Of a stretch of DNA of 45,772 nt, positions 1,548-13,135 are shown piece by piece; within the stretch, counting starts at the first letter, position 1; every line of letters begins with the position of its first letter. Below the pieces are notes generated by a model. That model worked only from the letters and a program-made list of their open reading frames with translations, was not told the origin of the DNA and ran no database searches. This stretch comes from Candidatus Hodarchaeota archaeon (GTDB lineage Archaea > Asgardarchaeota > Heimdallarchaeia > Hodarchaeales > Hodarchaeaceae). The translations under genes and the position numbers were made by a program. The stretch is from contig JAEOTQ010000057.1 of NCBI GenBank assembly GCA_016839785.1, forward strand, positions 1 through 45,772, written 5' to 3'.

Positions 1548-2426
1548 ATGAATTCTAATGATATTAAGTCCTTAATTGCAATATTGATAATTTTATTGCT
1601 CTCTACAGTTTTGGCTCTCGCGGGAAGTCATGAAGGTGCAAGAGTATTTGGTGGAATACCTTTGTTCACTCTTGGAGTTGCTATAGCCTTTATTATCCAA
1701 TGGATAGCATTCATACCCGCATATCTCAAACAAACAGAAAAATTCTTTGATTTAACTGGCTCTGTAACTTATAGCCTTGTAATTATTGTAACCGTTTTAT
1801 TGAGTCCTAAGATAGACACACGTACAATTTTACTAATGATTCTGGTTTTAATCTGGGCGATTCGTCTAGGGTCATTCCTCTTTAGGAGAGTCATGAAAGC
1901 AGGTGAGGACGAACGGTTCAGAGAGCTAAAGAAATCGAGTATAAGATTTTTGCTTACTTGGACTCTTCAAGGGTTATGGGTGAGTTTTACATTAGCAGCT
2001 GCGTTGGCGGCTATTACTGCAGAAAAACGAGTTGATTTAGGAGTTATTGGTTATATAGGATTAGTTATCTGGATTATTGGTTTTGCTTTTGAAGCAATTG
2101 CAGATTATCAAAAAAATAAGTTCAGATCGCTTCCAGAGAACAAAGGAAAATTCATCAATACTGGTTTATGGTCAATATCTCGTCACCCTAATTATTTCGG
2201 AGAGATTGTGATCTGGATTGGCATCGCAATAATTGCCCTTCCAACGCTGGAGAGTTGGAGATGGCTAACACTTATATCCCCAATTTTTGTGGCACTACTC
2301 CTTACTAAAATTAGCGGGGTTCCATTACTTGAGAAACGTGCGGACGAGAAGTGGGGAAATCAAGAAGACTATCAAGAATACAAAAAAGTCACACCTGTAT
2401 TAGTTCCAAAGCTCTCTTGGAAGTAA
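1548..2426 (+). CDS. DUF1295 / steroid 5-alpha-reductase-like membrane protein (first copy)
   Basis: The 292-residue product is an integral membrane protein with about seven hydrophobic segments. It carries the C-terminal signature of the DUF1295/steroid 5-alpha-reductase-like group: NTGLWSISRHPNYFGE near residues 204-219, followed by a helix pair and VPLLEKR. In related enzymes this Arg-His-Pro-Asn-Tyr segment helps bind a nicotinamide or S-adenosylmethionine cofactor, and substrates are lipids or isoprenoids. The actual substrate is unknown. ATG start with no clear Shine-Dalgarno, so the mRNA may have a short or absent leader. The next gene starts 28 bases downstream, and a paralogue lies two genes on, so 1548-4208 looks like one operon. 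Confidence 0.85.
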   Translation: MNSNDIKSLIAILIILLLSTVLALAGSHEGARVFGGIPLFTLGVAIAFIIQWIAFIPAYLKQTEKFFDLTGSVTYSLVIIVTVLLSPKIDTRTILLMILVLIWAIRLGSFLFRRVMKAGEDERFRELKKSSIRFLLTWTLQGLWVSFTLAAALAAITAEKRVDLGVIGYIGLVIWIIGFAFEAIADYQKNKFRSLPENKGKFINTGLWSISRHPNYFGEIVIWIGIAIIALPTLESWRWLTLISPIFVALLLTKISGVPLLEKRADEKWGNQEDYQEYKKVTPVLVPKLSWK

Positions 2427-2907: not shown

Positions 2908-2965
2908 AGATGGTTGATTCAATGAGAAAATACTCTCAAATAGTAGAAATAAGAGGATGTTGAAA

Positions 2966-3775
2966 ATGATAGAAATACTAGGCTTCTCTTTTCTAATTTT
3001 ATTTGTATTTTTCAGTGGATTTTACTTATTGGCTCTAAAACAAGGGATATACAATACAGTAGATATTGCATATGGATTCTCATACATTTTAATTGCAGTC
3101 TATGCATTGATTATGAGTGAGGATATACTAATTAAGAGGAAAATACTTACTACGGTACTTGTTTCTCTCTGGGGAATTCGAATTGCTTATTTCCTGACCA
3201 TTAGAAAATATGGCAAGGATGAAGTGACCAATGAAGATAAGCGTTTTAAAATAATGCGTGATAGATGGGGTAAGAGTAGTACATGGAAGGGGTTCTTAAT
3301 TCTATATATTCCACAAGTCTTCACAGTCCTTTTAGTTTCCTCTCCAGTTTCTGTAATCAATTTTTACAGCAATGCTTCAAAACTAACTTTTCTTGACATT
3401 ATACTCCTAATCTTAATTTTCATTGCAATAATAGGTGAAGCGTTGAGTGATTATCAACTATTTCGCTTTAAAAGCAATTCTTCAAATAAAGGCAAAATCT
3501 ATTCCGGAGGATTATGGAAATATAGTCAACATCCCAATTATTTTTTTGAGATCATGATATGGTGGGGATTTTGGCTCTTGGCTATTGTTTCAGTACCTAC
3601 CAACCAAATGCTTTGGGCTATAAGTTCTATAATTGGACCAGTGCTCATTACATTAAGTCTATTGAAAGTATCGGGTATTCCACTACTGAAGAGACGATTT
3701 GAATCAGAATCTGACTATTCTGAGTATAGTAGACGAACTTCCGTATTAATTCCATGGATACCGAAAAAGAAGTAG
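2966..3775 (+). CDS. DUF1295 / steroid 5-alpha-reductase-like membrane protein (second copy)
   Basis: A second member of the family at 1548, with the same architecture: multiple hydrophobic helices, then SGGLWKYSQHPNYFFE near the C-terminal third and SGIPLLKRRFE at the end. The conserved Arg of the first copy (SRHPNYF) is Gln here (SQHPNYF), which may mean a different cofactor or substrate. An ATG at 2957 sits directly against AGAGG, so I prefer the in-frame ATG at 2966, which leaves a normal nine-base spacing. It is third in the 1548-4208 operon. The two copies are clearly diverged, so this is not a recent duplication. Confidence 0.85.
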   Translation: MIEILGFSFLILFVFFSGFYLLALKQGIYNTVDIAYGFSYILIAVYALIMSEDILIKRKILTTVLVSLWGIRIAYFLTIRKYGKDEVTNEDKRFKIMRDRWGKSSTWKGFLILYIPQVFTVLLVSSPVSVINFYSNASKLTFLDIILLILIFIAIIGEALSDYQLFRFKSNSSNKGKIYSGGLWKYSQHPNYFFEIMIWWGFWLLAIVSVPTNQMLWAISSIIGPVLITLSLLKVSGIPLLKRRFESESDYSEYSRRTSVLIPWIPKKK

Positions 3776-3800: not shown

Positions 3801-4208
3801 TTGTCAGAAGTTCAATATACTACTGGAGTTTGCAATATTGGCGAAGCTGAAATTAACCAGCGACGACGTATAGGATATATAGGCCTTGGGCTGACATTAG
3901 TCTTCCTTATTGGATATGTAGCAATGATTTATCTCATAAGGTTACCTCCTCTTTTTGGAGTAATTGTGTTCATACCTGCAGAAATATTAACGGTAGGATT
4001 CCTTCAGGCCAGGAAAAAATTTTGTGCAGCCTACGGGTTGACTCGTCGACAGAATGTATCCTCAAAAATAGGCTTCACTATAAAAATAGAGGATTCTTTA
4101 GCCCAAAAGAAAGACAGAAATAAAGCTCTTGTAATTATTATCCAATCTATTATCCTGGCATCAACTATTACTATTTTAACACTGTTTCTGGGATCTATAC
4201 TTTACTGA
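3801..4208 (+). CDS. Small four-helix membrane protein of the CNIG type
   Basis: The product has 135 residues and starts at TTG with GAGGT seven bases upstream. It begins VCNIGEAEINQRRRIGYIGLG, then has two membrane helices, a segment ending in QARKKFCAAYGL, a charged stretch (SLAQKKDRNKA) and a final hydrophobic helix. The first part resembles the C-terminal half of the longin-like membrane protein at 9487-10242, which has QCNIGPQERQRRLLTGFGLG and ends FKFCVTNAL. The last part resembles the 59-aa protein at 9294-9473. I recall similar CNIG/FCA proteins in bacteria but know no function. It closes the DUF1295 operon, 25 bases after the previous gene. Confidence 0.7.
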   Translation: MSEVQYTTGVCNIGEAEINQRRRIGYIGLGLTLVFLIGYVAMIYLIRLPPLFGVIVFIPAEILTVGFLQARKKFCAAYGLTRRQNVSSKIGFTIKIEDSLAQKKDRNKALVIIIQSIILASTITILTLFLGSILY

Positions 4209-4336: not shown

Positions 4337-5230
4337 TTGAAAATTGGGTTTGTAGGTTCCGCAAATACAACAATTAATTGTAGGCCAGACAAGTCTTTTC
4401 GACTAGCCTCATACACCAAGAAAAAAGCATTAGAAATAATTGAATCAAATTTAACATGTATTCAAAAGACAATCGAGTTTTGTATTCGAAATCATTTCTA
4501 TTTTTACCGAATTGCAGATTTTATTCCATTTTTCTCGCATTCTATTTCAATATCGTGGGTTCAGATTGAAGAGATCTTTTCTGAATTATTTTTAGATATC
4601 GGAAAAAGAATTAGGAATAATGATATGCGAATCAGTATGCATCCTGGCCAGTATACAATACTAAATTCTCCTAAGGAAGGAGTTCTGAACAATAGTATTA
4701 AAGAATTAGAGGCGAATGTCTGGATATTAGATAAGCTGAAGCTAGACCATACCGCAAAAGTACAAATACATGTAGGGGGGATATATGGAAACAAAGAAGA
4801 AGCGACACTGCGCTTCATAAAAAATTTTCAACGCTTACCAGAATTCATGAAAAATAGAATTGTTATAGAAAATGATGATCGGTTATTTGATTTTAAAGAC
4901 TGTACAGCTCTCTCCAAGGAGCTAAACATACCTGTTGTATTTGATGTGTTTCATCATACTATTAAGAACAACAATGAGAGTACTTTGGAATCTTTAAACA
5001 TATTAGGATATTTATGGGACAATAAGGACGGTATCCCCATGGTTGATTGGAGTTATCAAGAAGTAGATGCACGAATGGGAAAGAATGCCAATACAATTGA
5101 TCTCATGTTATTTAAGAAATTTATTACTGAAATTAGTGATGAGGATTTTGACTTAATGCTTGAAATACGAGATAAGGAAAAAAGTGCGCTTCAAGCAGCC
5201 AAATTATTGCGTACACTTGGGCGATTATAG
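4337..5230 (+). CDS. uvsE: UV damage endonuclease (UvsE/UVDE)
   Basis: The 297-residue product is a TIM-barrel endonuclease that nicks DNA on the 5' side of UV photoproducts. It matches the family along its whole length: MKIGFVGSANTTINCRPDKSF at the N-terminus, HFYFYRIADFIPFFSHS, MHPGQYTILNS, VQIHVGGIYGNKEE, VIENDD, PVVFDVFHH and LMLEIRDKE at the end. The metal-binding His, Glu and Asp residues sit in these segments. The start is TTG, with a weak AGGAAA upstream. Its stop codon TAG is followed directly by the ATG of the photolyase gene, so the two are translationally linked. Together they give a light-independent and a light-dependent repair route for the same lesions. Confidence 0.93.
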   Translation: MKIGFVGSANTTINCRPDKSFRLASYTKKKALEIIESNLTCIQKTIEFCIRNHFYFYRIADFIPFFSHSISISWVQIEEIFSELFLDIGKRIRNNDMRISMHPGQYTILNSPKEGVLNNSIKELEANVWILDKLKLDHTAKVQIHVGGIYGNKEEATLRFIKNFQRLPEFMKNRIVIENDDRLFDFKDCTALSKELNIPVVFDVFHHTIKNNNESTLESLNILGYLWDNKDGIPMVDWSYQEVDARMGKNANTIDLMLFKKFITEISDEDFDLMLEIRDKEKSALQAAKLLRTLGRL

Positions 5231-6666: not shown

Positions 6667-7401
6667 TCAAAAAATACGCCCTAGTGAAGCATCTAATATC
6701 TTTCCAGTCATTAAAGGGGTCATTGCGGCAAACTCTATCATCTCATTCAAATCCTCTGGTAATAATGGATATTGTAGAAGTTGTTTAGTTATTCGTTGAG
6801 ATGATAAGTCTTCAAATGGAACACCAGTCTTCTCTGATTTCTTCTTTAATTCTCGATTGTGCCGATCAGTAAAGACGTATGTAGGAGAAACTCCATTAAT
6901 ACGAATTTGCGGTGCTAAAACCTGTGCCATTGACCGAATGTAATATACTAACCCAGCTTTGGCGACTCCATATGATAATTTATCCAATGAAGCTTCATAT
7001 GCAGAAGAACTAACTATATGGACAATAGCCCCAGTAGTCATAACTTTAGTTGCCATTTGTGTTAATAAAATAGCAGAAGTTAAATTCACTTTTATAACAC
7101 GATCGAAAAAAGCAGGATTAATTTCTAATGGGTTTTTAGAGGCTAAGGATCCCCCTATAGCATTTATGATGATATCTATCGATCCACATTCAGTTTTTGC
7201 CCATTCATTTAACCTATCAATTCCTTTTTCAGTTGTACAATCAGATGAAAAGCTTTTAATGCCTGGAAAACGATCACCTGACATTTTTAAACTCGTTATA
7301 AGAACTTGATTGTTTTGTTTAATGAGTTTGTTCATTATAGCTTCTCCAATCCCTCCAAGAGCGACACCAGTAATTAGAATATTTTTATTTTCAATGATCA
7401 T
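6667..7401 (-). CDS. Short-chain dehydrogenase/reductase (SDR)
   Basis: A classical SDR of about 244 residues. It has the Rossmann motif TGVALGGIG near the start, a DIIINAIGGSL segment equivalent to NAG, and a catalytic set with SSSAYEASLDKLSYGVAKAG, where the Ser and YxxxK are intact. The open frame extends 20 codons upstream, but the ATG at 7401 starts directly at MIIENKNILITG and has GAGGAA about nine bases upstream, so I chose it. The likely reaction is NAD(P)-dependent oxidoreduction of a hydroxyl or keto group. It is divergent from the acyl-CoA ligase at 7549 and might share its control region; the substrate is unknown. Confidence 0.85.
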   Translation of the reverse strand: MIIENKNILITGVALGGIGEAIMNKLIKQNNQVLITSLKMSGDRFPGIKSFSSDCTTEKGIDRLNEWAKTECGSIDIIINAIGGSLASKNPLEINPAFFDRVIKVNLTSAILLTQMATKVMTTGAIVHIVSSSAYEASLDKLSYGVAKAGLVYYIRSMAQVLAPQIRINGVSPTYVFTDRHNRELKKKSEKTGVPFEDLSSQRITKQLLQYPLLPEDLNEMIEFAAMTPLMTGKILDASLGRIF

Positions 7402-7548
7402 ACCTATTTTCCTCAATTCAAAATTAATAGTTTTTACGTAATAAATTCTAGGACAAATCAACTTTGAGTATAGAAAAACGTCTTTAAAAAGGAATTAATG
7501 TCATATTGAAAAGCGATTTCAATTCATAGAAATTAAGGAATTAGGAAT

Positions 7549-9225
7549 ATGGAATCAAAATGGTATAAATCTTGGCCAGAAGGAGTCAGAAAGCACTTAG
7601 ATTATCCTAACGTCACTCTTCATAAACATTTTGAAGATATCGTAAAGAAAAATCAGGACAACCCTTTTCTGTCAATTCTTGGGATGAATTTCTCATATGG
7701 GGAGGTCAACGAGCAAGCTAATCGTTTAGCAAATGCTCTTCTAAAGAGAGGTATCTCGAAAGGAGATAAAGTGGGAATATTCGCACCGAATATTCCTCAA
7801 TGGGCGGTAGCCTTCTTTGGAATCTTAAAAACAGGAGCCACTGCTGTCTTAATCTCACCTTTACTTGGTTCAGAAGATCTAAAATATCTGATACTAGATT
7901 CTGACATAAAAATGATACTAGCGCTTGATTTACTTTATCCTAAGCTTGCAGATGATTGTTTTGACTGTCCAGTTTTGAGTGACGTAGAAAATATTATTAT
8001 TACATCACTGGGTGACCTCCTATCTCCTGTAAAGAGATTTCTGGCAACAGCAATACGCAAACTACCTAAAAGCCCTCCTATTCCAAAGAACGTTTTAAGA
8101 TATCAACAGCTCTTGAATGAAAATGAACCAGTCCTAAATAGTGTAAAATGCGATCCAGATGAAGACATTGCCGTTTTGGCCTATACAGGAGGGACAACAG
8201 GAACCCCAAAAGGTGCCATGCTTACACACAAAAACATTATCAGCAATATGCGGCAAGCGCGGGAGTGGGCTATTGCATCACATCCAGAAGGGATACGAAA
8301 AAAATTCTTAGGAGCTGTTCCGTTTTTCCATTTAATAGGATTAACTACCGTGTTTCTTGCTACTGCAGAGTTCGAAAGTACAGTATATCTTGTTCCCAAT
8401 CCGCGAGAATTTGAATCAATCTTAAAACTAATCCAGAAAGAAAAGATAAATTATTTTCACGGAGTTCCAACTTTATTCAAAGCTCTAATGAAACAACCAA
8501 ATTTCAATAAATATGATATGAGTTCTCTCGATATTATTTTCTCGGGTGGTGCACCACTGCCTGCAGAATTAGCTTTGGAGATAGAAAATTCATTTAAAAA
8601 TGCAATTGTAGTAGAAGCGTACGGTATGACTGAATTATCCCCTATGGTCTCCGCAAATCCCCTAGAAAAAAATAATAGAAAATTTGGCAGTATTGGTCTT
8701 CCCATTCCTGATACCAAATTGAAGATTGTGGATGTAGATACAGGAAAAGAGATACCACAAGGAGAATCTGGCGAAATATGTGCTAAAGGTCCCCAGGTCA
8801 TGATGGGATATTACAAAAGAGATGAGGAATCCAAACTTACGATTGATGAAGAGGGATGGCTACATACTGGGGATATAGGTAAAATGGATGGAGATGGTTT
8901 CTTTTTTATTCAGACTAGAAAGAAAGATATGATCATTGTATCAGCCTATAAGGTTTTTCCGCCCGAATTAGAATCTTACATCGAAAAAGAATTTCCACAA
9001 ATTGAGGAGGTTGCTATTATTGGCGTTCAGGATGAATATCAAGGGGAATCAGTGAAGATGATTGCAGTATTAAAAGAAGGAAAATCATTAACAGATCAAC
9101 AAGTCATATCCCATTTGAAGGGGAAAATTGCATCATATAAGATTCCAAGATTTATTGAATTTCGATCTGATCCCTTGCCTAAAACTGGAATCGGAAAAAT
9201 AGATAGAAAAGCCCTGAAACAGTGA
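7549..9225 (+). CDS. Acyl-CoA synthetase (AMP-forming, long-chain fatty acid-CoA ligase-like)
   Basis: The 558-residue product has all core motifs of the ANL superfamily: the phosphate loop YTGGTTGTPKGAMLTH, VVEAYGMTELSP, the hinge region GWLHTGDIGKMD, and the C-terminal catalytic lysine in LPKTGIGKIDRKAL. It activates a carboxylic acid as acyl-AMP and then forms the CoA thioester. The N-terminus resembles FadD-type long-chain enzymes (YPNVTLHKHFEDI). AAGGA lies nine bases before the ATG. Fatty acid activation in an archaeon with ether lipids points to fatty acid breakdown or protein/lipid acylation; two PlsC-type acyltransferases occur in the same window. Confidence 0.9.
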   Translation: MESKWYKSWPEGVRKHLDYPNVTLHKHFEDIVKKNQDNPFLSILGMNFSYGEVNEQANRLANALLKRGISKGDKVGIFAPNIPQWAVAFFGILKTGATAVLISPLLGSEDLKYLILDSDIKMILALDLLYPKLADDCFDCPVLSDVENIIITSLGDLLSPVKRFLATAIRKLPKSPPIPKNVLRYQQLLNENEPVLNSVKCDPDEDIAVLAYTGGTTGTPKGAMLTHKNIISNMRQAREWAIASHPEGIRKKFLGAVPFFHLIGLTTVFLATAEFESTVYLVPNPREFESILKLIQKEKINYFHGVPTLFKALMKQPNFNKYDMSSLDIIFSGGAPLPAELALEIENSFKNAIVVEAYGMTELSPMVSANPLEKNNRKFGSIGLPIPDTKLKIVDVDTGKEIPQGESGEICAKGPQVMMGYYKRDEESKLTIDEEGWLHTGDIGKMDGDGFFFIQTRKKDMIIVSAYKVFPPELESYIEKEFPQIEEVAIIGVQDEYQGESVKMIAVLKEGKSLTDQQVISHLKGKIASYKIPRFIEFRSDPLPKTGIGKIDRKALKQ

Positions 9226-10384: not shown

Positions 10385-11092
10385 TTGGAACCGTACAAGA
10401 TTCGTTCAAAACTTGGTTTTCGGAGACGATTTATTCATTATTTTCTATTAAATTTGGCCCGAATGATCTTCTGGTTCATACCATTTGAGGTGCAGGGGAA
10501 AGAAAATCTTCCAGACGAAGGGATACCTACATTACTCACTTCCAACCATTTAAGCCATATTGACTCAGTTTTTACCGCTGTAGCGGCTTTTCCAGTTAAG
10601 CGAGCTATTCGTTTTACAGGAGCAGCCGATTTCATGAAAAAAATCATGTTTAAATGGACAAAGTATGAATTAGCATTTCCTGTAGGGCGAGGACCATTAG
10701 AAAGAACCAGATTTATTCGCAATAGTCTTACATTGCTTACAAATAAAGAAACTGTAGGAATCTATCCAGAAGGAGGAAGATCAAGATCTGGCAAGTTTCA
10801 ATTTGAAAAAATTAAAGTAGGAACAGGATGGATTGCTAAGTTAGCAGGACCCGATACTAAAGTAATCCCTGTTTTCGTTTATGGTACAAATAATATCATT
10901 CCATTTGGAAAGTTCTTTCGTTTAAACTTCCATACTCAAGTGAGGATCTATTTTGGACCTCCTCTATCTTTAGATCAGTATTATCAGTTACCAAATGATC
11001 TAGAAACGTCCAAAAAAGTAACTAAAGCCATTGTCGAAGGAATTTTAGAACAGGGAAGACAATGCGCCAAGGATTTAGCTTCTAAAGACTAA
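10385..11092 (+). CDS. Lysophospholipid acyltransferase-like protein (PlsC family)
   Basis: The 235-residue product carries the acyltransferase motifs in order: the HX4D motif in SNHLSHIDSV (His55 and Asp60), a substrate segment FPVGRGPLERTRF, GIYPEGGRSRSG, and VIPVFVYGT. A hydrophobic helix precedes the catalytic part, so it is membrane-bound. Bacterial and eukaryotic members acylate lysophosphatidate; in an archaeon the acceptor is uncertain. It starts at TTG with GAGGA about eight bases upstream. The gene ends 7 bases from the 3' end of the converging STAY-GREEN-like gene. The second PlsC-like gene at 23111 is only distantly similar. Confidence 0.88.
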   Translation: MEPYKIRSKLGFRRRFIHYFLLNLARMIFWFIPFEVQGKENLPDEGIPTLLTSNHLSHIDSVFTAVAAFPVKRAIRFTGAADFMKKIMFKWTKYELAFPVGRGPLERTRFIRNSLTLLTNKETVGIYPEGGRSRSGKFQFEKIKVGTGWIAKLAGPDTKVIPVFVYGTNNIIPFGKFFRLNFHTQVRIYFGPPLSLDQYYQLPNDLETSKKVTKAIVEGILEQGRQCAKDLASKD

Positions 11093-11099
11093 GAGCGGA

Positions 11100-11570
11100 T
11101 TAATACTCCTCGAACAGACGATAATTCTCTAGTGAACCCCAATCCTCAATTTTATTAAATTTTTCTTTCTTTGATCGGAAATGAACCTTGATTGGCGCCT
11201 TATCCAGGACAGGATCAGTAAGAAAATGCTGCTGATCTCCATAACGAAAAGCTTCCAGTACTAAAGGCAATTCCTGACGAAATATTCTATCACGAAATTT
11301 CAATGTGCCAATTCCCCCACTTATTTGGCAATAAACATTGAGGGAACAACGCCCTTCATCTTCCAACCATTCAGCTAATACTTCATCACGCATAAGACGT
11401 GTCTGCCATCCCTTCAATTGTTGTCTATTAAATTCGGGAGCAATGGTCAAAAATAAATCTCCAGTTCGGTCTGAATGTGTTAAAGTATAGCAACGGGGTG
11501 TTAAACCGGATTCACTAGCTGTCGGGAAGGTGATCGTCACATGTAATTTTTCAGGGTTTAATCGGCTCAA
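11100..11570 (-). CDS. STAY-GREEN (SGR) family protein, putative Mg-dechelatase
   Basis: The 156-residue product matches plant STAY-GREEN proteins along nearly its whole length: TPRCYTLTHSDRTGDLFLTI, LKGWQTRLMRDEVLAEW, LNVYCQISGG, RQELPLVLEAFRYGD and the C-terminal EKFNKIEDWGSL. Plant and some bacterial SGR proteins remove Mg from chlorophyll a, the committed step of chlorophyll breakdown. The residues reported as important in a bacterial homologue (as I recall, His32, Asp34 and Asp62) fall at exactly these numbers if translation starts at the TTG at 11570, which supports that start. There is no transit peptide. The gene follows the heliorhodopsin gene by 50 bases, with a T10 run between. It looks less AT-rich than its neighbours, which fits transfer. 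The natural substrate here is unknown. Confidence 0.85.
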   Translation of the reverse strand: MSRLNPEKLHVTITFPTASESGLTPRCYTLTHSDRTGDLFLTIAPEFNRQQLKGWQTRLMRDEVLAEWLEDEGRCSLNVYCQISGGIGTLKFRDRIFRQELPLVLEAFRYGDQQHFLTDPVLDKAPIKVHFRSKKEKFNKIEDWGSLENYRLFEEY

Positions 11571-11597
11571 CTGAAAAAACCAATATTGTTCATTATT

Positions 11598-11607
11598 AAA
11601 AAAAAAA
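11598..11607 (-). terminator. T10 run after the heliorhodopsin gene
   Basis: Ten consecutive T residues on the coding strand lie 14 bases after the heliorhodopsin stop codon and 27 bases before the SGR start. Archaeal RNA polymerase can terminate at such runs without a hairpin. It may stop or attenuate transcription between the two genes. Confidence 0.45.
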
Positions 11608-11620
11608 TAGAAGAGGGGGA

Positions 11621-12445
11621 TTATGCAAAAATTAATCCCGAAAATACAAGCCAGGCCAATGCTGATTTGGCAACCAGACTTAAAATTATGTATCCTCGTT
11701 CGCCAAACAGGTAATCTTTCCAAGGTCCAACCTTCTTATACTGAAGGAACATATTGAGAGCAAAGCTGTTGAAAAAGAGGAAATACATCACTATAGCAAT
11801 GTATACAAACGTAGGTGCCTGTTGACCTCCAAGATCGAAGCTAAGAAATGCACCAAGTATCACAATCCATGGCATTATTCCTGCGATCCATCCAATCCAA
11901 TATGGTAGCCAGTTGGTTTTTTTAGTGTATTGATTAATTTGCTCCATTAATAAACCGAACATGTTCATTAGAAAGTTCAATACAAAAACAAGTACTATCA
12001 CCCAAAAATCTAGGATTCCAAATGCAAGTGAAATGAAGATAATCATAACTGATGAGCTAAATGCATATTCCCACCAGCGGATTGGATTCATTTTTTTCTG
12101 TAGATTCGTAATGTAGGAGTTATTCAAAGGATATGCAATTAAGAAATGTGCTAAGGCTGACATTAAAAGAAAACTTGCCAGGAGAATTCCTGCAACATTT
12201 TCGAATGCAAAAAAAACCTCGGGTGCTGGACCAAAGATAGGTTTTGTTCCTGTTAATTCTACAATTTCTAATTTTGAGATATAAACATCTACTGAAAAGT
12301 TCCTTATTTCGTCAATAAATAAACTTAGCCCAAAAATCATTATTCCTTGCACTAAATGCAATATCGCCATTATTTTATTGAATTTTTTCAAATATGGCGC
12401 ACTTATGGAGGATTTCTCCCCATTAATAAAAGTAAATTCACTCAT
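11621..12445 (-). CDS. Heliorhodopsin
   Basis: A seven-helix retinal protein of 274 residues. The last helix has the family signature YIILSLVAKSALAWLVFSG with the retinal-binding lysine (Lys260 from this start). Helix 3 carries IRWWEYAFSSSVMI, where the Glu after RWW (Glu126) is the expected Schiff-base counterion. The long first loop after helix 1 is also typical. Heliorhodopsins have slow photocycles, show no clear ion pumping in most tests, and have been linked to light sensing and to photolyase regulation. An upstream in-frame ATG (12454) overlaps the GAGGA that serves the ATG at 12445, so I chose the latter. The SGR gene follows on the same strand; photolyase lies 5 kb away. Confidence 0.92.
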   Translation of the reverse strand: MSEFTFINGEKSSISAPYLKKFNKIMAILHLVQGIMIFGLSLFIDEIRNFSVDVYISKLEIVELTGTKPIFGPAPEVFFAFENVAGILLASFLLMSALAHFLIAYPLNNSYITNLQKKMNPIRWWEYAFSSSVMIIFISLAFGILDFWVIVLVFVLNFLMNMFGLLMEQINQYTKKTNWLPYWIGWIAGIMPWIVILGAFLSFDLGGQQAPTFVYIAIVMYFLFFNSFALNMFLQYKKVGPWKDYLFGERGYIILSLVAKSALAWLVFSGLIFA

Positions 12446-12752
12446 TTTCCTCATACCTTAATTTCTATGCGGTTTGTGGTAAATAAAAGGAATTCTTCGT
12501 GTTATTTAATAACTTAGCTTCACATTCTCACAATCTTACGATTCTCGTTCTCCCATGTCTAGATTCTCCACAAACAATTTACATTCAATGAATTTACAAT
12601 ATAGTAGTAATCATCATTTCTTTATGACTCTCAAACGTATTTTCGATGTTTATTAGTGAGAAGTCGTACATATTTAATACCAGTCTAAAAGCCATCCTTT
12701 TAGTTTCTTTTTGCTTATCAACAAATTATTCAACTTTAAATTGGTTTAGATC
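12446..12752. other. Intergenic region between heliorhodopsin and ABC remnant
   Basis: No coding frame is apparent. For the heliorhodopsin gene a candidate TATA-like element GTTATTTAATAAC lies at 12501-12513, about 55 bases upstream of the start; its arms GTTATT and AATAAC are symmetric around a central T. Nothing else stands out. Confidence 0.3.
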
Positions 12753-13135
12753 TTGAGTTTCAATGTAAAAAGGTATTCCAGTAATATAAAATGGCTTTTA
12801 AACCATCTATTAAACCAAAAATTACTACTGGCGAGTGTTCTTGTTGGAATTCTTATTGTCACTTTTTCAAGAGTTATCATTCCCATTTTTATTGGGGTAA
12901 TAATTGATAATATTCTTTTAACGGAGAAGCTTTGGATGTTCTTCTAAAAGGAAGAACCTCAATTATCATTGCCCACCGACTTTCAACCATTTTGAATGCA
13001 GATCGAATTCTTGTGATGGACAAGGGCAAGATTATCGAAGAAGGAAGCCACCAATCGTTACTTGAAGGAGGAGGAAAATATAGCCAATTATATAAACAAT
13101 ATTATGAACATCAAAGCGCCAATTGGAGTATCTAA
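12753..13135 (+). pseudogene. ABC exporter remnant with a large internal deletion
   Basis: The 5' part (12753-12928) encodes the start of an ABC exporter membrane domain: a short cytoplasmic lead, then [31 protein letters not shown]. The 3' part, in another frame from about 12929, encodes only the end of a nucleotide-binding domain: [21 protein letters not shown] with the H-loop His, then [18 protein letters not shown] and the tail. Most of the membrane domain, the Walker A, the signature and the Walker B motifs are missing, about 450 residues. The junction near 12925-12932 (GAGAAGCTTTGG) puts the two parts out of frame. It cannot encode a working transporter. A misassembly is the alternative. 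Confidence 0.8.

Follow-up and report, generated by a model that had tools for sequence, protein, structure and literature searches.

A Staygreen-family protein encoded next to heliorhodopsin in a Hodarchaeota genome, and its recurrent linkage to light-related genes in Asgard archaea

In a Candidatus Hodarchaeota archaeon (assembly GCA_016839785.1, contig JAEOTQ010000057.1), the window, i.e., the whole stretch of 45,772 nucleotides analysed here, encodes at positions 11100-11570 a full-length member of the Staygreen (SGR) family, the gene of which directly follows a heliorhodopsin gene and lies near genes for photorepair. This association with light-sensing and photorepair genes recurs among Asgard archaea, and the reading favoured here, with modest confidence, is that SGR is an Mg-dechelatase contributing to light protection by acting on chlorophyll-type pigments of foreign origin. 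The genes on which the argument leans are as follows:

11100..11570, minus strand: Staygreen (SGR) Mg-dechelatase homologue, 156 amino acids (aa), TTG start
11621..12454, minus strand: heliorhodopsin, 277 aa
5231..6613, plus strand: DNA photolyase, FAD_binding_7 type, 460 aa (PF03441, 9.5e-79; PF00875, 9.8e-37)
4337..5230, plus strand: UV-damage endonuclease UvdE (PF03851, 3.2e-51), abutting the photolyase start

The Staygreen protein and its active site

In a profile search, the protein matched the Pfam family Staygreen (PF12638) with an E-value of 1e-46 and a score of 158.9 bits (cut-off 27), from position 2 to position 147 of the 147 of the profile. A longer open reading frame (ORF; 11100-11723) overlaps the 3' end of the heliorhodopsin gene, and the TTG at 11570 was taken as the start because relatives begin at this very position, where one of them (G006) has an ATG. 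Among PDB entries, 7y5y, a Staygreen protein of Anaerolineae, is the sole relative by sequence (7.8e-48, ~50% identity over 150 residues), and it is also the sole structure match below 0.001 for the AlphaFold2 model of the window SGR (alignment of 29 prokaryotic sequences; pLDDT 85.9), with a TM of 0.91 and a root-mean-square deviation of 1.3. A weak structural resemblance to cofilin (TM of about 0.4) was discarded as not meaningful.

The protein of this structure, namely AbSGR-h of Anaerolineae bacterium SM23_63 (PDB 7Y5Y; PMC8531759, PMC11006732), thus resembles the window SGR in sequence and fold, as well as in catalytic and structural residues; it differs in having a bacterial host and a measured activity. 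In AbSGR-h, activity depends strictly on D34 and D62, the mutants being still soluble, H32 is important with a weaker activity when changed, and R26, Y28, T29, and D114 are structural as judged by mutagenesis (PMC8531759); the enzyme is active with a low substrate specificity (PMC11006732). The window SGR keeps R26, Y28, T29, H32, D34, and D62, has D112 in the place of D114 of AbSGR-h, and further exhibits the functional residues T31, T36, R61, E63, and R93, where R26, Y28, H32, D34, R61, D62, and E63 are invariant among the 29 prokaryotic SGR sequences aligned. Given these kept active-site residues, the window SGR is likely an active Mg-dechelatase.

An earlier reading made from the letters of the window alone (the sequence-only reading) had already proposed a STAY-GREEN-type Mg-dechelatase homologue with catalytic His and Asp candidates, to which H32, D34, and D62 correspond, and had quoted the motifs YTLTHSD, RDEVLAEW, QISGG, ELPLVLEAF, and FNKIEDWG, all present in the 156-aa translation, without stating that the gene lies on the minus strand; the lack of a STAY-GREEN profile match, which it had named as a refutation, is excluded by the Pfam E-value. 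With plant STAY-GREEN (SGR1/NYE1), the window SGR has the Pfam domain in common and presumably also signature motifs.

Recurrent linkage to light genes in Asgard archaea

SGR shares its strand with the heliorhodopsin gene 50 bases upstream, and the product of the latter (PF18761, 8.7e-84; NCBIfam HeR equivalog, 298.7 bits, cut-off 100) keeps the Schiff-base candidate Lys263 in helix 7, within SLVAKSALAW; the UvdE and photolyase genes lie 4.5-7 kb from SGR. The sequence-only reading had rightly placed SGR directly after heliorhodopsin but missed that linkage to light-sensing and photorepair genes is recurrent in Asgard archaea.

The SGR family was found in 49 of 228 Asgard genomes, corresponding to 10 of 62 genera. 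When the neighbours of 36 Asgard SGR loci were clustered, with genes not chosen beforehand, heliorhodopsin and a family of short-chain dehydrogenases (SDR) came joint first (13 loci each); a methyltransferase came next, at 10 loci of family f8, and major facilitator superfamily transporters, photolyase, and a peroxiredoxin were less frequent. Within a distance of 10 kb or less, heliorhodopsin accompanies SGR in 14 of the 36 Asgard genomes carrying both, against 0.26 expected, and photolyase in 11 of 22, against 0.15 expected, where expectations assume uniform gene placement. With each genus counted once, linkage holds in 4 of 8 genera for heliorhodopsin (tail probability 3e-5) and in 6 of 8 for photolyase (7e-10). 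Besides, a heliorhodopsin gene is present in 36 of 49 SGR-positive genomes vs. 24 of the 179 other Asgard genomes; as these genomes are interrelated, the linkage and co-occurrence figures are guides rather than exact probabilities. Two recurrent neighbours were considered as chlorophyll enzymes, without gaining support: the SDR matches only general SDR models of NCBIfam, far below cut-offs, instead of an NYC1/NOL-like chlorophyll b reductase, and the methyltransferase scores 43.6 bits with the BchM model, the cut-off of which is 158.9.

Heliorhodopsin followed by SGR on the same strand occurs in the families f1 (G000, G002, G011) and f8 (G132, G139), the SGRs of which sit in different starred, i.e., supported, groups of a tree of prokaryotic SGR sequences. 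Because the same order is found despite these separate groups, it points to either an old arrangement or repeated assembly. A class II photolyase gene adjoins SGR in two further genomes (G151, G172).

A larger light island was observed in G076 (L034:1-10383) and G098 (L064:2756-13822), of family f16 and genus g31, with genes for phytoene synthase CrtB, two phytoene-desaturase-like proteins (CrtI), photolyase, SGR, AhpC, a fasciclin, and a rhodopsin in which the helix-7 lysine is present. The island of G076 also encodes a CarH/PpaA-like B12-binding protein with Wx9EH and ExHxxG patterns and no recognised helix-turn-helix; the Wx9EH pattern is known from light-sensing CarH-type proteins. In G006, a tocopherol-cyclase-like gene (PF14249, 1.8e-13; L029:8517-9467) stands directly upstream of SGR.

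Light protection and the alternatives

According to the favoured reading, the window SGR would remove Mg from chlorophyll-type pigments via D34, H32, and D62, like the Anaerolineae enzyme, the substrate being pigment or breakdown products from phototrophs that would be taken up or would invade the membrane. It would take part in a light-protection gene group where heliorhodopsin would act as light sensor, photolyase and UvdE as DNA repair enzymes, and to which relatives would add carotenoid synthesis and peroxiredoxin; dechelation would then be the first step in the disposal of a photosensitising pigment. By homology, Mg-dechelatase activity is most likely, and the gene neighbourhood suggests the protective role. 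As for the origin of the substrate, the large subunit of Mg-chelatase (BchH/ChlH; BchH/CobN family, PF02514) was not found in the host genome (84.5% complete), control genomes being positive, as expected from the sequence-only reading that the host would not make chlorophyll; an Mg-tetrapyrrole substrate would therefore be external. The same family was not detected in 13 of the 15 SGR-bearing Asgard genomes searched, with controls positive, and its member in the remaining two may be the cobaltochelatase CobN. The search for retinal-forming Blh/BCD (PF15461) gave no match in the 15 genomes and none in the control genomes either.

Several points weigh against this proposal: (i) pheophorbide a oxygenase PaO (PF08417) was not found in the 15 genomes, with controls positive, so that a continuation along the plant pathway is not evident, (ii) pheophytin is itself a photosensitiser, so that removal of Mg alone would not detoxify the pigment, (iii) the entry of chlorophyll into the cell is an assumption of the proposal, (iv) 30 of the 48 SGR-positive genomes tabulated have neither heliorhodopsin nor photolyase within 10 kb, partly owing to short contigs, and (v) the SGR neighbourhoods inspected in Bacillota and around Chloroflexota genes related to AbSGR-h show no light genes, unlike in Asgard archaea, so that the link does not extend to the SGR family as a whole.

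In other organisms, proteins encoded beside heliorhodopsin, photolyase and an ABC transporter among them, are bound and modulated by it (PMC11109279; PMC9769723). That heliorhodopsin would bind SGR or control it by light is speculative, and the stronger form of this idea, i.e., a light-controlled Mg-dechelatase where heliorhodopsin senses light, binds or switches on SGR, and foreign chlorophyll-type photosensitisers are destroyed only in the light, is improbable. If true, SGR would constitute a new heliorhodopsin target with a first physiological role outside photosynthetic organisms.

Among the other explanations, it is unlikely that SGR has some other metal tetrapyrrole or an unrelated ligand as its target, or that it serves heliorhodopsin as a partner without enzymatic function, the removal of Mg from chlorophyll being then no more than a promiscuous activity of this fold: the lack of a detected endogenous Mg-tetrapyrrole pathway in the BchH/CobN searches would fit, whereas all residues needed for Mg-dechelatase activity are kept and 50% identity over the whole length links the protein to a highly active enzyme. 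Alternatively, the same enzyme could dechelate the chlorophyll of phototroph remains, sinking or buried, to gain carbon (phytol, fatty acyl chains), without special tie to light and with an acyl-CoA synthetase and an acyltransferase as partners. Both of these are kept as neighbours of SGR, each in four genomes of the genus, and alpha/beta hydrolases are found near SGR in G029, L007, L008, and L009; this explanation is nonetheless improbable, considering that the acyl neighbours occur in a single genus while heliorhodopsin and photolyase are found with SGR in several families, and that hydrolase families are large and unspecific. The turnover by SGR of a bacteriochlorophyll-like pigment made by the host itself is very improbable and largely refuted: bacteriochlorophyll genes have been claimed in deep-sea Heimdallarchaeia (PMC11193907), but the homologues underlying this claim are, for example, DGGGP synthase and SDRs, and the BchH/CobN searches in the host and its SGR-bearing relatives speak against it.

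The host is Asgard, as the sequence-only reading had it, the nearest named relatives being Hodarchaeota metagenome-assembled genomes (MAGs) with 75 and 72% identity. The same reading had raised a contaminant joined to the contig, and a contaminant or chimera, conceivable in a MAG of 248 contigs and 84.5% completeness, has a negligible probability and is refuted by independent congeneric assemblies: the run of UvdE, photolyase, SDR, AMP-binding enzyme, 251-aa protein, acyltransferase, SGR, and heliorhodopsin, i.e., eight or more genes in the same order, is kept in G011 and G002 from the genus of the window, parts of it occur in another order in G008 and G006 (a single contig of 4.9 Mb), the SGRs of the genus form one starred clade (support 100/97), and the third-position GC of SGR (0.318) is inside the range of the neighbouring genes.

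Known relatives and further genes

To our knowledge, SGR homologues are scattered through non-photosynthetic prokaryotes, where we know of no purpose for them, and it is from such prokaryotes that plants are thought to have received their SGR gene. Archaeal SGR homologues were reportedly noted by Obata et al. in 2019. In the main text of Dey et al. (2021; PMC8531759), homologues in Archaea are reported in general terms and three archaeal ones are aligned, with no mention there of Asgard archaea or of linkage to light genes. The view of the sequence-only reading that no archaeal case had been described is hence not tenable; its interpretation otherwise stands as regards family, host, residues, and the expectation that the host does not make chlorophyll, in which no Mg-chelatase large subunit was detected. 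Plants differ from the host in possessing the chlorophyll pathway and PaO downstream, neither of which was detected in the latter. With respect to heliorhodopsin, Bulzu et al. (2021; PMC8612252) describe monoderm bacteria in which photolyase, UvdE, and carotenoid genes stand at its flanks, as in the Asgard loci, but no Staygreen gene is mentioned in those neighbourhoods, unlike the Asgard ones, and Staygreen is not among the ten groups of heliorhodopsin neighbours in PMC11109279. As such, the window protein is a new member of an already known family, and its context appears new, since the combination of SGR with heliorhodopsin and photorepair was not found in a mostly open-access literature, most subscription journals lying outside the search. 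That several Asgard families repeatedly have SGR amid genes for light sensing and photorepair leads to a concrete hypothesis, namely protection from pigments in sunlit sediments and mats; the finding also adds a candidate partner of heliorhodopsin and is in favour of a light-exposed life in some Asgard archaea.

The window further contains, in the vicinity of SGR:

1548..2426, plus strand: DUF1295 membrane protein, second copy (PF06966, 3.1e-70)
2957..3775, plus strand: DUF1295 (steroid 5-alpha-reductase-like) membrane protein (PF06966, 1.7e-60)
3801..4208, plus strand: conserved protein of 135 aa, family not assigned (neighbour cluster 10; no Pfam match)
6667..7461, minus strand: short-chain dehydrogenase (PF13561, 1.2e-26) of cluster 1, SDRs of which recur near SGR in family f8
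7549..9225, plus strand: AMP-binding acyl-CoA synthetase-like enzyme (PF00501, 3.5e-95; cluster 14), a neighbour kept within the genus
10385..11092, plus strand: acyltransferase of PlsC type (PF01553, 5.2e-14; cluster 15), convergent with SGR, a neighbour kept within the genus

The 135-aa protein recurs in five genomes of the genus, close to the gene for heliorhodopsin, UvdE, or photolyase. At 12753-13135 (plus strand), two short ORFs resemble by eye the beginning and the end of an ABC exporter that lacks its central part, as would a gene remnant or an assembly deletion; neither matched ABC families of Pfam. Scans for sigma-70 promoters and terminators, which suit archaea poorly, gave no more matches than shuffled sequences.

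Extra, broken, or partial Staygreen copies occur in some Asgard genomes (G045:C19, G045:C2, G006:C1:1543065-1543223, G007:C1:90359-90781), with internal stops or only the first ~53 profile positions, which suggests gain and decay. In G217 (L065:9039-9956), the Staygreen frame reaches 305 aa but holds a masked run of N, making its C-terminal extension untrustworthy. Beyond Asgard archaea, the IMG/VR contig IMGVR_UViG_3300033406_000373 (L074:5001-5453) carries a Staygreen homologue (39% identity) together with genes that by eye are terminase-like, portal-like, and DNA-methyltransferase-like; it groups with Bacillota homologues in the tree and was read as a phage-borne Mg-dechelatase homologue. 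Staygreen genes are also located on plasmids of Peribacillus, Cytobacillus, and Priestia (L075:5001-5453; plasmid hits H2 and H3), the one of Peribacillus near genes for a PAS-domain protein and an integrase.
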